This document shows, piece by piece, positions 47,087 through 56,796 of a stretch of 64,000 nucleotides of DNA; the stretch's first letter is position 1, and every line of letters starts with the position of its first letter. Origin of the DNA: Phyllobacterium sp. 628 (GTDB lineage: Bacteria; Pseudomonadota; Alphaproteobacteria; Rhizobiales; Rhizobiaceae). Position numbers and translations under genes: made by a program. The stretch lies in the NCBI RefSeq assembly GCF_014189505.1, contig NZ_CP050301.1:2487501-2551500 (forward strand). Direction: 5' to 3'. The notes below the pieces were generated by a model that made no database searches, was not told the DNA's origin, and saw only the letters and a program-made list of their open reading frames with translations.

Positions 47087-48638
47087 TCAGGCTTCTTTGT
47101 CGGTCTCAACATAGCGCGGGAAAATCGGTTGCGGCGCGGGCAAATCCGCGCCGGGCACCAGTTCGCTGCCGCCCAGCAGATTGACAAAGTTGCGCTTGTC
47201 TGCCGGTACCGCGAGAACATCCAACAGCTTTGCTGCTGATCCCGGGATGAACGGCAGGCAAAGAATGCCAATGCGCCGGATAACTTCCGCCGTCACGTAA
47301 AGAACGGTTTCCATCCGGGCCGGATCGGTCTTTTTCAGTGCCCAAGGCTCCTGCGCCGCGAAATAGCGGTTGGCTTCCGCAACGACCGCGAAGATCGCGC
47401 CAAGCGCCAGATGCATCGCCTGCGTGCCGACAGCCTTGCGGGCTGTTTCCAATGCCGCCACCGCCTGATTGAGGATCGCCTTGTCCGCGTCAGTGAAATC
47501 ACCCGGCTGCGGAACTTTCGCTTCACAGTTCTTGTTGATCATCGACAGCGAACGCTGGGCAAGGTTGCCAAGATCATTGGCAAGATCGGCATTGGTGCGG
47601 TTGACAATGGCTTCGTGACTGTAATTGCCATCCTGACCGAACGGCACTTCACGCAGCAGGAAATAACGCACCTGATCGAGACCATAATGGTCGACCAGTG
47701 AGAAAGGATCAATGACATTGCCGACAGACTTCGACATTTTCTCACCGCGGTTGAACACGAGATCCGTGGCCGAAAACCCGCTTTGGCAGTTCAATCCCGG
47801 CGGATAGCAGGAATGCTGGCCAGTAGACGGCGTGAAAGCGAATGATGTCCTTGCCGATAATGTGCACATCGGCCGGCCAGTAGCGCCAGCGCTCGGCATT
47901 CTCGTCCGGATAACCGGCTGCGGTAAGATAATTGGTCAGCGCGTCGACCCAGACATACATGACGTGCTTTTCATCGCCGGGAACAGGAATGCCCCAGTCG
48001 AATGTCGTGCGCGATACGGACAGGTCTTTCAGACCTGATTTGACGAAGGATACGACCTCATTGCGCCGCTCATCGGGGCCGACAAAACCGGGATTATCCG
48101 CATAGAGCTTGAGCAGGCGGTCCTGATAGGCGGACAGGCGAAAGAAATAGCTTTCCTCTTCCAGCCATTCGACCGGCGAGCCCTGCGGACCGTAGCGTAC
48201 GCCATCGGCGCGAACCTCAGTTTCTTCTTCCTGATAATAGGCTTCGTCGCGCACGGAATACCAGCCGTTATAGGATGCCTTGTAGATATCCCCCGCTTCC
48301 ACCATTTTCAGCCAGATGGCCTGCGATGCCTTGTGGTGCCGCTCCTCAGTGGTGCGGATAAAGTCATCATAGGACGCATTCAAAGCATGACCCATGTCAC
48401 GGAAAAGCTTGGCGTTTCTGTCTGCCAGCTCACGCGGCGTAATGCCTTCTTTACGCGCCGTCTGAAGCATCTTGATGCCATGTTCGTCCGTCCCGCTGAG
48501 GAAGAACACATCCTTGCCGTCATGACGGTTGAAACGGGCAATCGCGTCCGTTGCGATCAGCTCGTAAGCGTGACCGATATGCGGACTGCCGTTCGGATAG
48601 GAAATGGCAGTTGTGATGTAAAATGTTTCGCGGCTCAT
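47087..48638 (-). pseudogene. metG: Methionyl-tRNA synthetase, single frameshift
   Basis: All MetRS parts are present but in two frames. The first frame (48638 to 47742) has HIGH as PHIGHAYE and ends GHGSRVQPR. The second carries [20 protein letters not shown] and the anticodon-binding domain to 47087. Deleting one base in 47756-47762 gives [15 protein letters not shown] and a 516-aa protein of normal length (1552 nt = 3x517 + 1). metG is essential in bacteria, so a sequencing indel, or a second copy elsewhere, is more likely than real loss. Confidence 0.9.
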
Positions 48639-48732: not shown

Positions 48733-49791
48733 TCAACGGCCAGTAAGGGCGCGATGCATCCTGTCGAGAAAGATAAGAACAGTCTGCTTGCGATCAAGAT
48801 TGAAAGCATCGGAGTCGCGCGCTTCCGTTTGCATCTCCTGCCAGAGATTGGACCACTGATTGGCTTCGCCGACAGCGCCCCTGTCGGCGGCATCCCTCGC
48901 CTTCGCTGCGATACGGGCAAAGATATCCTCGAGGAAAAGATCGAACTGGATCTCGGAATCGCGCCCCGACAAAGCAGTACCCAGCGCGTGGGCTTTCGGC
49001 ACGTCGAAAACTGGCTTGGTCAGGATTACTTCGACCGTTTGCGAGATTTCGAGGCCACCGAATGCCAGCAGCAGGGCTGCCTTGCGCACGCTGCCATCCG
49101 CATGGGCGACAAGCGCCTCGGTATCCGTCACCTGATCCGCGCCGAGACCGATCGTGGCCAGAGCCGACAAAAGATCCCCGCGATCCAGCGCTTCAAAACG
49201 GATGGACTGGCAGCGTGAGCGGATTGTTGGCAGCAGGCGTCCGGATGAATGCGAGATCAGAATAAACAAAGTACGCTGCGGTGGCTCTTCAAGAGTCTTC
49301 AGTAACGCATTGGCAGCATTGCGATTCATGTCGTCAGCAGGATCGACAATGACAATGCGCCAAGCACCATCATGTGCAGTCCGGTTGAGAAAATGCGTCA
49401 CGCGGCGCACTTCATCAACAGTAATCCCGGTCTTGAATTTTCCAGTCTTGGTATCGAGTGGGCGGCTGATATGCAGGATGGCGAGGTGCGTTCCAGTGGC
49501 AATTTGCCGGTATGGCGCGACGGCATAGTCCGGTTCGGCCAGCGCCAGCGGCGCTTCCTGCTGAACGGGATGTTTCAGCATATGTCCGGCAAGATGGAAT
49601 GCCAGTGTGGTCTTGCCGACGCCTTGCGGCCCCTCGAGCAGCAACGCGTGATGCATATGGCCGGATTGATAGGCCTGCGCCAGAAAAGCCCGGATCGCCA
49701 TATGCCCGAACAATGCGGGATTGGCGGAAGGTGCGGGGATGCCGTCAATTGAATCGTGTGTGGCCGGAACGTCGAGAACAGCATCACTCAT
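48733..49791 (-). CDS. holB: DNA polymerase III subunit delta prime
   Basis: A 352-aa clamp-loader subunit. P-loop [10 protein letters not shown], sensor region [20 protein letters not shown], and [20 protein letters not shown] with SRCQSI. Coupled to tmk by ATGA overlap, 94 bp upstream of metG. The order tmk-holB-metG-tatD is typical of the group. Confidence 0.93.
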
Positions 49792-50492
49792 TTTGCCGCT
49801 CCGGTTTTGGATTTCATCTTGATTGCCCGGCTGGCTTTCAGCTGATCAACGAGATTGGCAATATCCGCAGCAATGTCTTCAACAGACCGGTCGGCAGACA
49901 CCACCTTGCAACGCCGTGGTTCTGCCGCAGCAATCGCGAGATAGGCGTCGCGTCGCTTGCGATGGGTTTCAATGGTCTCTTTCTCGAAACGGTCAGCCGT
50001 TTCGGCTCCGCGGCGCGCATTGGCGCGTTGCAGGCCGGTTTCGGCAGGCAGATCGAGAATGATCGTCATGTCCGGCATCAAGCCATTGATTGCAGCGCGT
50101 TCAATCGCGCGCATCAAACCGGGATCGAGGTCACCGGTAACGCCCTGATAGACGCGGCTGGAATCGATATAACGATCGCACAGCACCATGGTGCCGGTGT
50201 TGACCGCCTGCCGCATGACCTGTTCCACATGATCATTGCGGGCAGCGCCAAACAACAGCGCTTCCATCGCCGGACCAAAGGATTCAGCAGCGCCACTCAA
50301 AATCACATGCCGGACGGCCTCCGCGCCGGGTGAACCGCCGGGCTCGCGCGTTACCAGCACATCATCACCCGCAGCGCGCAGATGCTCAGCCAGACGGGTG
50401 ATCTGTGTGGATTTTCCAGCACCCTCGCCGCCTTCAAAGGTAATGAACAGTCCTTGTTGCACGCCGTCAGCCGTCTTTCGATGCAGAGTCAT
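49788..50492 (-). CDS. tmk: Thymidylate kinase
   Basis: A 234-aa dTMP kinase. P-loop [26 protein letters not shown], and [12 protein letters not shown] with the DR[YF]-type motif. Makes dTDP for DNA synthesis. Start 50492 lies 53 bp after the dacF-like gene. Confidence 0.95.
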
Positions 50493-50545: not shown

Positions 50546-51754
50546 TCAAAGCTTCAAGCGCCGCATCCAGCCGGTCGTCAGTTCCAGCACTGCGTCCAGC
50601 GACCGCTTCTGCAAATCACCAGATTCAACTGCTTCTGCCGTATAGACCGGCGTTTCCTGTGCGAGTGCATCACCGATCCAGATTTTCAACGTACCAACCT
50701 GTTCATCGGCTTTGAGCGGAGCAATCAGCGGCCCCCTATATTCCACATGGGCTTTCAGGCGGTCCTTGTTGGCAGTCGGCACCAGCAGACTGATCTTTTC
50801 ATGCGCTTTCAGGGCAACGGCGGATTTGACGCCGCCAAACACGCTGGCCTCGCCCACAGTCTCGCCTTCGGCAAAGATGCTGATTTCCTCAAAGGCATTA
50901 TACGCCCATTCGAAAACCTTCTTGGCTTCTTCGGCTCGTTCCTTGTCACTGGCAAGGCCGCTCAAGGCGACGATATAACGGCGGCCATTGTGTTCAGCAG
51001 AACCGACAAGGCCATAGCCGGACTGTTCCGTATAGCCCGTACCCATGCCGTCAGCGCCGATGTCCAAACGCAGCAGCGGATTTCGGTTGCGCTGGAAAAT
51101 ATTGTTCCAGGTAAAGCTCTCCTGCGCGTAGGTGCGGTAATATTCCGGATATTCGTGTTTGATGTAGCGGGCCAGTGTGACGAGATCCGTCAATGACACT
51201 TTCTGTTGCGGATCGGGCAACCCGGTCGAATTGCGGAATGTCGAGCTGGTAAGGCCAATCTCCTTGGCCCGCTCATTCATCATGGTGGCGAAATTCGACT
51301 CTGATCCGGCAATGCCTTCCGCCAGAATAATGCAACCGTCATTGGCGGACTGCACGATAACGCCCTGAACGAGATCGCCAACACTGATTGAGGATTTGAG
51401 CTTGGCAAACATGGTCGAACCGCCGGAAGGCGCCCCACCCGTCCGCCAGGCATTCTCGCTGACGACATATTGGGTATCCATCGCAATCTTGCCGGTTTTC
51501 AGCTGGTGAAACACCAGTTCCATGGTCATCAGCTTGGCCAGAGCTGCCGGCTCGATCAATGTATCGGGCGCCTTGGCATAAAGAATTGAACCGGTCTGAT
51601 CTTCAAGCATCAAAGCTTGCTTGGCTTTCGTATCGAACAACGTTTCCTGCGCGTGTGCCGCAGCCGAAAATGCAAAAACGGCAACGATGCCTGCGGCAAG
51701 CATACGGAACGGCAGTTTCAAAGAATTCCTATGGTGCGGAAAATCAATTGCCAT
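50546..51754 (-). CDS. DacF-like D,D-carboxypeptidase homologue lacking catalytic residues
   Basis: A 402-aa PBP5/DacF-type protein with signal peptide (RMLAAGIVAVFAFSAAAHA) and the expected layout. The canonical SxxK reads ALAK here: Ala71 replaces the nucleophile Ser in EPAALAKLMT, Lys74 is kept. SxN is kept (VQSANDG, Ser136). KTG is GTG (Gly238 in GADGMGTGYT). The C-terminal PBP5_C domain is present. Both substitutions predict no D,D-carboxypeptidase or beta-lactam acylation. ATG 51754 overlaps the rlpA stop; the frame is open to 51844. Structural or regulatory role in the cell wall is inferred. Confidence 0.88.
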   Translation of the reverse strand: MAIDFPHHRNSLKLPFRMLAAGIVAVFAFSAAAHAQETLFDTKAKQALMLEDQTGSILYAKAPDTLIEPAALAKLMTMELVFHQLKTGKIAMDTQYVVSENAWRTGGAPSGGSTMFAKLKSSISVGDLVQGVIVQSANDGCIILAEGIAGSESNFATMMNERAKEIGLTSSTFRNSTGLPDPQQKVSLTDLVTLARYIKHEYPEYYRTYAQESFTWNNIFQRNRNPLLRLDIGADGMGTGYTEQSGYGLVGSAEHNGRRYIVALSGLASDKERAEEAKKVFEWAYNAFEEISIFAEGETVGEASVFGGVKSAVALKAHEKISLLVPTANKDRLKAHVEYRGPLIAPLKADEQVGTLKIWIGDALAQETPVYTAEAVESGDLQKRSLDAVLELTTGWMRRLKL

Positions 51755-53081
51755 CATCGCGAACGACAAAGGCATCACCTGCCCCCGCCTTCCAGGCGGC
51801 TTGCAGCAGCGCGTCAGTGGTCTTTGTTGTTTTGGCACGGGCAATCAACGCGACGCGCATACCTTCGGGGCTGTTGACTTCGGAAAGATCGACCTTACCC
51901 AATGGCGTCAAAGCGGCCATCACACGGGCAGCCGTGCTCTTGTCCTTGAAGAGGCCGACATCGACATATTCACCGGCCGGTGCCGTGACATTGTCCAATT
52001 TATTCTGAACCTTCCACGCATCGGACAACGACACGGGTGAAATCAGGCTGTTCATGGCATCGGCCGTAGCATTGGCACTGGCTATGCGCTCGTCAGCATA
52101 GGAGCTGGCAAATGGTGTTACGCGCTTGGTGGTGCCCTTATACGACCCGAGCAGCATCGCCGGCTTGTCATCAATATAGGGGCCGACCATCGGCAGGACC
52201 GGATCTGCGCCGTAGTTGAATGGCGCTGCAGAGCCCTGCATTTCAGCCGGTGCCTGTTGCATCTGCTGTTGTGACTGCCGTGGCATTGGCGCACCGAGAT
52301 TGGCAGCCTGATCGTTGAACGATACCGGCTGAACATCCAGACTGGCAACCTGAACGCCCGCAACACGCGGCTGCCGCATACCCGGTATGGCGACGGTATT
52401 ACGCTGCGTCGGCGTTGACCCGTTCATGGCAATCATCACGCCGGATGCAGGCTGCCCCCAAGGATCGGGCGCACCGGGGCCACGATAGGAGGCCAGAAGA
52501 AACGCGTCGTCACGGCCTTCCAGCGGGGCCCGCCCGACATACTCGACCTTCACATCGGCCGTACCGGTATGCTGATAATCCAGCATGGTCGCGGCCTTCT
52601 GCGACAGGTCGATGACGCGATTGCTGTGATAAGGCCCGCGATCATTGACACGCACGATGACCGAACTGCCATTGGCAAGATTGGTGACGCGCGCATAGCT
52701 CGGCAAAGGCATGGTCGGATGCGCTGCCGACAGGTGGTTCATGTCATAGACTTCGCCATTGGCGGTCAAGCGGCCGTGAAAGGCCGAACCGTACCAGGAT
52801 GCGAGACCCTGACGTTTATAGCCGGGTTCTTCTTTGGGGTAATACCACTTGCCGCGAACCTGATAGGGTCGACCCAACTGATCCCGGCCGCCGCCGCGCG
52901 GCATATTGCGAAAATCCGTGACAACACGCGGACTGGCTTTGACGCCATATTCCGATTCAGCGAAATATTCCTTGCCGTGGGAGCGCTTGCCAACTTTTAC
53001 CTTGGGCGAGGATGCGCAGGCAGCCATCAAGGCGCCCATCGCTACAACTCCGGCAATTCGAAAAGCTTTGGCCTTTGACAA
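51744..53081 (-). CDS. rlpA: Septal ring lytic transglycosylase RlpA-like lipoprotein with SPOR domain
   Basis: A 445-aa protein. Lipobox with Cys22 (GALMAACASS). The double-psi beta-barrel RlpA core is GLASWYGSAFHGRLTANGEV, then VNDRGPYHSNRVIDLS. A Gln/Pro-rich linker (residues about 210-300) leads to the C-terminal SPOR domain (YVDVGLFKDKSTAARVMAAL). Binds denuded glycan strands at the septum. Heads the operon with the DacF-like gene. Confidence 0.9.
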   Translation of the reverse strand: MSKAKAFRIAGVVAMGALMAACASSPKVKVGKRSHGKEYFAESEYGVKASPRVVTDFRNMPRGGGRDQLGRPYQVRGKWYYPKEEPGYKRQGLASWYGSAFHGRLTANGEVYDMNHLSAAHPTMPLPSYARVTNLANGSSVIVRVNDRGPYHSNRVIDLSQKAATMLDYQHTGTADVKVEYVGRAPLEGRDDAFLLASYRGPGAPDPWGQPASGVMIAMNGSTPTQRNTVAIPGMRQPRVAGVQVASLDVQPVSFNDQAANLGAPMPRQSQQQMQQAPAEMQGSAAPFNYGADPVLPMVGPYIDDKPAMLLGSYKGTTKRVTPFASSYADERIASANATADAMNSLISPVSLSDAWKVQNKLDNVTAPAGEYVDVGLFKDKSTAARVMAALTPLGKVDLSEVNSPEGMRVALIARAKTTKTTDALLQAAWKAGAGDAFVVRDDGN

Positions 53082-56705: not shown

Positions 56706-56796
56706 TGGCGGAGGGGGTGGGATTCTGAACCCACGGTAGGCTCTCACCTACGCCGGTTTTCAAGACCGGTGCCTTAAACCGCTCGGCCACCCCTCC
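56706..56796 (-). tRNA. tRNA-Ser(TGA)
   Basis: On the minus strand GGAGGGG opens the acceptor stem and pairs with CCCCTCC near the 3' end, followed by discriminator G and an encoded CCA. The anticodon loop reads CTTGAAA, anticodon TGA. The long variable arm GTAGGTGAGAGCCTAC is typical of serine tRNAs. Span of 91 nt including CCA. Confidence 0.97.

Follow-up and report, generated by a model that had tools for sequence, protein, structure and literature searches.

A DacF-type protein encoded beside rlpA in Phyllobacterium is predicted to be a pseudoenzyme kept by selection

Introduction

Is a carboxypeptidase homologue that has lost residues of two catalytic motifs a gene in decay, or a protein kept for something other than catalysis? 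The question is raised by the dac gene of Phyllobacterium sp. 628, which lies in the 64,000-nucleotide stretch analyzed here (the window; contig NZ_CP050301.1, positions 2,487,501 to 2,551,500). A sequence-only reading of the window had described the product as a PBP5/DacF-type protein in which the nucleophile of SxxK and the lysine of KTG are both replaced, had proposed a retained pseudoenzyme rather than decay, and had linked it to a septal RlpA.

Results

Two catalytic residues are replaced in an intact frame

The intact frame and its assignment to the PBP5/DacF type were borne out by the open reading frames and by Pfam, both Peptidase_S11 (8.5e-62, 209 bits; cut-off, 27.6) and PBP5_C (1.2e-20, 74 bits; cut-off, 21.2) scoring above their cut-offs (Table 1). 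The highest hydrophobic moment in the whole protein lies in its C-terminal tail, near residues 383 to 401. As for the signal peptide that had been proposed, the N-terminus is signal-peptide-like as judged by eye alone. The solved relatives nearest to dac are 4k91, 3it9, and 5tr7, and in phmmer alignments with solved PBP5-type chains, Ala71 falls on the nucleophile of PASLTK and Gly238 on the K of KTG. Codon reading agrees with the alignment, verifying both replacements, and it also confirmed that Lys74, Ser136, and Asn138 are still present. By homology and its SxN motif, the protein belongs with the S11 D-Ala-D-Ala carboxypeptidases, but the nucleophile serine and the KTG lysine, or a basic substitute for the latter, are missing. 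NCBIfam equivalog models were discarded as evidence, since a canonical second copy falls under their cut-offs just as dac does, which makes the low score uninformative.

Table 1. Positions of dac, its active-site codons, and other features in the window
Feature	Position	Strand	Description and basis
metG	47087..48638	-	Frameshift-split near 47763-47815; two overlapping frames match S. meliloti MetG
holB	48733..49791	-	Pfam; 4-nt overlap with tmk
tmk (thymidylate kinase)	49788..50492	-	Downstream of dac; Pfam; 53-nt gap to dac
dac	50546..51754	-	Predicted DacF/PBP5-type pseudo-carboxypeptidase, 402 aa from ATG; ORF list, Pfam
dac protein parts			N-terminus signal-peptide-like (by eye); S11 domain, 38-262; PBP5_C, 288-377
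dac codon 238 (GGT)	51041..51043	-	Gly replacing KTG Lys, then Thr-Gly; codon reading and alignment
dac codons 136-138	51341..51349	-	SxN motif as S-A-N, kept; codon reading
dac codon 109 (CCT)	51428..51430	-	Pro109; site picked post hoc
dac codon 74 (AAG)	51533..51535	-	SxxK Lys kept; codon reading
dac codon 71 (GCT)	51542..51544	-	Ala replacing SxxK nucleophile Ser; codon reading and alignment
rlpA	51744..53081	-	Upstream neighbor of dac; DPBB_1 domain (Pfam); D113/H121 present; 11-nt overlap with dac
tRNA-Ser(tga)	56706..56796	-	Sole tRNA found in the window

Both replacements are fixed in Phyllobacterium

Ala71, Lys74, the S-x-N motif, and Gly238 are common to all 20 Phyllobacterium genomes compared, including that of the window. 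Alanine 71 is encoded by GCG in 14 of them, by GCT in 3, and by GCA in 3, and glycine 238 by GGT (10), GGC (5), GGA (3), or GGG (2); with three alanine codons and all four glycine codons in use, the codons vary under constant residues. A sequencing error or a strain-level mutation could be suspected, since the frameshift in metG suggests that this assembly may hold errors, but this is refuted by the presence of both residues in all 20 congeneric genomes and keeps practically no probability. The split of metG is itself probably an assembly indel (assembly completeness, 94%; 4 contigs); a genome search found no full-length metG elsewhere in the genome.

Nei-Gojobori medians over pairs with a dS of 0.05 to 1.5 gave, for Phyllobacterium, a dN/dS of 0.083 for dac (71/190 pairs), 0.078 for tmk (79/190), and 0.124 for rlpA (106/190), figures that are rough given a median dS of 1.24 between pairs. 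Fixation of Ala and Gly across the genus with a dN/dS below 1, the signs of selection named in the sequence-only reading, are thus both present, dac standing near tmk at about 0.08. Canonical dac genes gave 0.159 in Hoeflea (15/15 pairs), 0.105 in Nitratireductor (6/10), and 0.206 when three canonical genera were combined (35/36), and genes without the KTG lysine gave 0.118 in Mesorhizobium (66/66) and 0.112 in genus g75 (10/10).

Of 151 family genomes searched with the S. meliloti query, 142 had a match at 1e-90 and 9 had none; the dac frame was uninterrupted in all 142. With the window's protein as the query, many family rows had one internal stop, which we take as the natural stop overrun by alignments near residues 398 to 400; the S. 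meliloti query gave none in 142. Near relatives with Ser and Lys, which would speak against the claim, were absent from Phyllobacterium but present in other genera at 50 to 61% identity (for example, in 7 of 10 loci outside the genus), so that the pseudoenzyme claim is valid for Phyllobacterium and not for the whole family. In this genus, the loss of catalytic residues, their fixation across species, an intact frame, and purifying selection are found together, and sequence comparison makes it very probable that the dac product is a pseudoenzyme under selection.

Lysine-less orthologues are spread across Hyphomicrobiales

The motif was read in 267 orthologous loci, a number that includes overlapping fetches of one genome and excludes 14 loci with only distant paralogues (<36% identity); 123 were canonical, and 144 were not. 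Among the best 80 of 579 confirmed loci, 32 were canonical and 48 lacked the lysine, the latter including loci of Phyllobacterium, Tianweitania, Mesorhizobium, Aminobacter, Aquamicrobium, Paramesorhizobium, Brucella, Ochrobactrum, Falsochrobactrum, Paenochrobactrum, Rhizobium, Pararhizobium, and one Nitratireductor; some Mesorhizobium loci in this best 80 were canonical. The lysine is also missing from the proteins of Sinorhizobium meliloti (L-A-N and ATG) and Shinella (F-A-N and VTG), and the S. meliloti gene, located between rlpA and tmk, carries the annotation D-alanyl-D-alanine carboxypeptidase. A class-wide sample of 142 genomes yielded 126 with a match, and all of the 69 better-matching loci that were read proved canonical, 68 of them outside Hyphomicrobiales; rlpA and tmk were both in place in 60 of these 69 loci and tmk in 68, one locus having neither on the stretch read.

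Two matches at 1e-70 were found in 27 family genomes. In the 12 of these 27 that were read, every second copy was canonical and every operon copy was not. These second DacF-like genes outside the operon are loci L282 to L293; five of the 12 operon copies have ETG, where the charge of the catalytic lysine is reversed, and another has EIG. Deeper motif erosion was seen in four distant or small-genome relatives, namely, L200 (FLG with Ala71), L206 (MVG, with the SxxK lysine lost), L210 (VLA with Asn71), and L263 (AAA with Thr71); in the distant, lysine-less L206, Asn138 is gone together with Lys74. No dac match at 1e-70 was obtained for 27 of 394 family genomes; among the 20 listed, several are small, five of normal size belong to one genus, g105, and codes g7, g69, and g100 occur along with others. 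The operon protein may have been lost outright from these genomes or be very divergent in them.

S11 paralogues are canonical in four other genes of the window's genome and in ten loci of the genus (one being the window's own again), and in each of the 64 lysine-less genomes, no fewer than three S11 genes were counted in all. The mean copy number of 4.17 in lysine-less versus 3.85 in canonical genomes (P = 0.04, ignoring kinship) is weak evidence for compensation by paralogues. A link to LD-transpeptidases was rejected, YkuD copies averaging 13.8 in 64 lysine-less genomes and 14.6 in 53 canonical ones (P = 0.30).

The lysine appears to have been lost repeatedly and before the serines

Dropping contained sequences reduced 285 sequences to 254, and clustering at 93% identity within each state left 217 representatives, 110 lysine-less and 107 canonical, off-operon second copies included. 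On a quick maximum-likelihood tree of the neighbors rlpA, tmk, and holB (201 loci, dac left out), the lysine was lost 17 times and never regained at any gain cost tried; the same tree gave 6 changes at Ser71 and 20 to 27 at Ser136. Single-gene trees gave 19 lysine changes for rlpA, 19 for tmk, and 15 for holB. An AU test with 50 rows rejected a single lysine-less clade, the group being defined by the trait and the tree being a quick one. The dac tree, with motif columns removed, showed 14 lysine-less groups and needed only 7 unordered changes. We gave the neighbors' tree more weight, since dead copies evolve more quickly and could be drawn together in a tree; the count of losses thus depends on trusting that tree, and several internal branches are weakly supported in both. 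Together with the 142 intact frames and the fixed residues with varying codons, the roughly 17 recurrent losses uphold the earlier view that dac is a retained pseudoenzyme rather than a decaying gene.

The two substitutions had also been called independent. Both are present, but they were not simultaneous, since the sister-like genus g75 already lacks the lysine yet has the serine. By the neighbors' tree, one lysine loss is common to Phyllobacterium and a clade including g75, Brucella, and Falsochrobactrum, and Phyllobacterium lost the nucleophile later; g75 is its sole companion on the dac tree. The state with both Ala and Gly was reached separately in Tianweitania (L140 and L186) and in another genus (L160 and L300).

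Both Ser71 and Ser136 are kept in all 107 lysine-bearing representatives, which indicates that the lysine was lost first; among the 110 lysine-less ones, Ser71 is absent from 20 and Ser136 from 68. Position 238 in the latter is occupied by G (43), A (37), V (13), E (6), or else S, L, F, M, N, T, or Q, and in none of the 110 by Arg or His. In PBP5, a Lys-to-Arg change in KTG abolishes carboxypeptidase activity but not penicillin binding, an effect that the lysine-first order would fit.

The retention of Ser71 by 90 of the 110 lysine-less representatives could point to a protein that is still an enzyme, with altered chemistry (for instance, one that uses Lys74 and a reshaped cleft) or acting on another substrate. 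We consider this most unlikely because Phyllobacterium has no nucleophile at position 71, because the residues at 238 are disparate across the order instead of forming one new motif, and because each of the three motif variants of E. coli PBP7, S67A, S124A, and K231A, is described in the available text of PMC11586513 as unable to bind Bocillin FL, with localization at midcell kept. These PBP7 residues were matched by motif to positions 71, 136, and 238 of dac, and by this analogy we infer that changes at the motif residues kill dac activity.

Change is concentrated at some active-site positions and absent from others

After removal of 22 rows of <45% identity, steps on the neighbors' tree were counted for 98 lysine-less proteins and 81 canonical ones. 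The lysine-less set accumulated 30 steps at position 238, 30 at Ser136, 21 at Thr239, and 16 at Tyr247 (only to Phe), versus 0 at each in the canonical set. Lys74, Asn138, and Asp139 took no step in either set, and Arg273 took at most one in each. The near-constancy of these four residues in the 98 lysine-less proteins would suit a decoy or shield, that is, a dead protein that binds D-Ala-D-Ala stems, guards them from active carboxypeptidases, and so tunes the pentapeptide pool without RlpA, and E. coli PBP6a has been reported as seemingly inactive in cells and perhaps protecting pentapeptides (PMC4916385, available text). The variation of Ser136 and Thr239 is not what conserved binding of one ligand would lead us to expect, however, and we regard the decoy as unlikely.

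One site changed in the opposite sense. Pro109 took 4 steps in the lysine-less set versus 39 in the canonical set and is present in 101 of 108 lysine-less versus 18 of 91 canonical orthologues, with 15 of the 17 loss lineages having it in every member or almost every one; among 9 independent pairs, 5.8 went the same way and 0.0 the other (median P = 0.03), for a site selected post hoc from about 350. Arg286 was rejected as a signature: it is lost from 87 of 108 lysine-less versus 5 of 93 canonical proteins (independent pairs, 5.7 versus 0.3; median P = 0.06) but also from 15 of 69 canonical proteins of the class-wide sample.

Once scaled to its neighbors, the rate of change of dac is about 1.7-fold higher in lineages without the lysine than in canonical ones, both domains being affected. 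Such an acceleration is what partial relaxation would produce and is evidence against retention for a second job. The faster change, like the 11-nt overlap of dac and rlpA, would agree with a relaxed remnant in which catalysis is gone and the open reading frame is kept mostly to preserve the operon or to couple translation. Such a remnant is nonetheless very unlikely, given a genus dN/dS close to that of tmk, a frame uninterrupted in all 142 matched genomes, new residues fixed in the genus, a Pro109 more conserved in lysine-less copies, and 53 nt between dac and tmk.

RlpA is a near-constant neighbor

The gene order of the rlpA-dac-tmk-holB operon agrees with Pfam, and rlpA and tmk flank dac in most loci of the order: on the same strand, rlpA lies upstream and tmk downstream in 248 of the 267 orthologous loci, and rlpA is upstream in 253. 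The D113/H121 pair of the window's RlpA, which we take to be its catalytic residues, is retained in 244 of the 253 loci having rlpA, across every class, and a co-decay of RlpA with dac was rejected. Its near-constant place beside dac and its conserved D/H pair make RlpA the obvious candidate partner. A search of the last 150 residues of the window's RlpA listed no SPOR domain at E values up to 10, with filters that remove most weak matches; the septal address given to RlpA is thus unsupported by its sequence.

Discussion

An ordered, chemistry-specific, and repeated loss in one operon slot, combined with constraint elsewhere in the protein, fits a redundant activity that was shed from a protein with a second job, and the other S11 proteins, being canonical in the genus, could cover the catalysis. 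The best reading of our data is therefore a repeated shedding of redundant carboxypeptidase activity while a non-catalytic role stays. Leaving the partner aside, we consider it likely, judging from sequence comparisons, that dac encodes a retained, exported pseudoenzyme whose carboxypeptidase activity is gone and which is kept for a non-catalytic job.

In mechanistic terms, the ancestral alphaproteobacterial operon protein may have had two roles, one in trimming pentapeptides and the other as an anchored envelope partner, most probably of RlpA, the lytic transglycosylase encoded in the same operon. Trimming would have been covered by other S11 paralogues, the catalytic role being shed repeatedly and the partner role kept, and the anchored fold, with a cleft that keeps Lys74, Asn138, and Arg273 in the 98 lysine-less proteins compared, would place RlpA or control its activity, or else would retain stem peptides left uncleaved. 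We put forward RlpA as the partner tentatively, with somewhat less than even confidence. The chances seem evenly balanced that the rlpA-linked "carboxypeptidase" of Hyphomicrobiales forms a class of dedicated non-catalytic envelope factors with about 17 origins, the same ordered path (the KTG lysine, then the SxN serine or the nucleophile), and a convergent Pro109.

Published genetics bear on this proposal. In Agrobacterium tumefaciens, insertions in "DD-carboxypeptidase (Atu1499)" and "RlpA (Atu1500)," which have adjacent tags, were both detrimental without the muropeptide transporter, according to the available text of PMC9790009; the only bounds on the motif state of Atu1499 come from Sinorhizobium, Shinella, and Rhizobium, and polar effects of insertions on tmk and holB could mimic a dac phenotype. 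A "DD-carboxypeptidase dac" was needed when group 3 LD-transpeptidases were missing (PMC11527210, whose available text gives no locus tag for it). If the protein is dead, phenotypes recorded under the carboxypeptidase name would point to a structural or regulatory role beside RlpA in these unipolar-growing bacteria, and the "DD-carboxypeptidase" genetic interactions of polar-growing rhizobia would be non-enzymatic. Work in E. coli counts against a non-catalytic job, since inactive PBP5 and PBP6b did not restore cell shape but worsened it, and its authors conclude that activity matters (PMC4916385, available text); inactive PBP7 likewise did not shorten envC mutant cells, whereas the active form did (PMC11586513, available text). 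With their canonical counterparts in sister lineages and second copies, the roughly 17 natural losses offer a ready comparative experiment on the non-catalytic function of PBP5-type proteins.

Non-catalytic wall proteins are a known kind, and precedents exist. Among the open-access papers listed, judged by titles and the beginnings of abstracts, we found no fitting description of an inactive or pseudo-carboxypeptidase of this kind, whether in general or around rlpA and dac in these bacteria, nor one of a naturally and repeatedly inactivated PBP5-type protein, although such an absence weighs little. With the carboxypeptidases of the PBP5/DacA-DacC-DacD type (Peptidase_S11 plus PBP5_C), dac shares its sequence family, domain order, and C-terminal tail, but it lacks their nucleophile serine and KTG lysine. 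DacC (3it9), which we take to be PBP6a, differs from dac in having all three motifs intact. PBP6a is an S11 protein that, in the available text of PMC4916385, seems inactive in cells and may protect pentapeptides but has DD-carboxypeptidase activity in vitro, five times below that of PBP5.

Degenerate LytM regulators such as DipM, and EnvC named in the same paper, use a degenerate hydrolase domain to regulate other hydrolases (PMC10336132, available text). They belong to another protein family than dac, and a regulatory contact is shown for DipM but only inferred for dac, for which the one sign of such a role is operon linkage, with rlpA upstream in 253 of the 267 loci. Finally, inactive variants of Bacillus subtilis PBP 2B and E. 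coli PBP7 retain a structural or localization role (available texts of PMC5656894 and PMC11586513). Those variants are laboratory mutants of active enzymes, whereas the predicted inactivation of dac is natural, fixed, and repeated.
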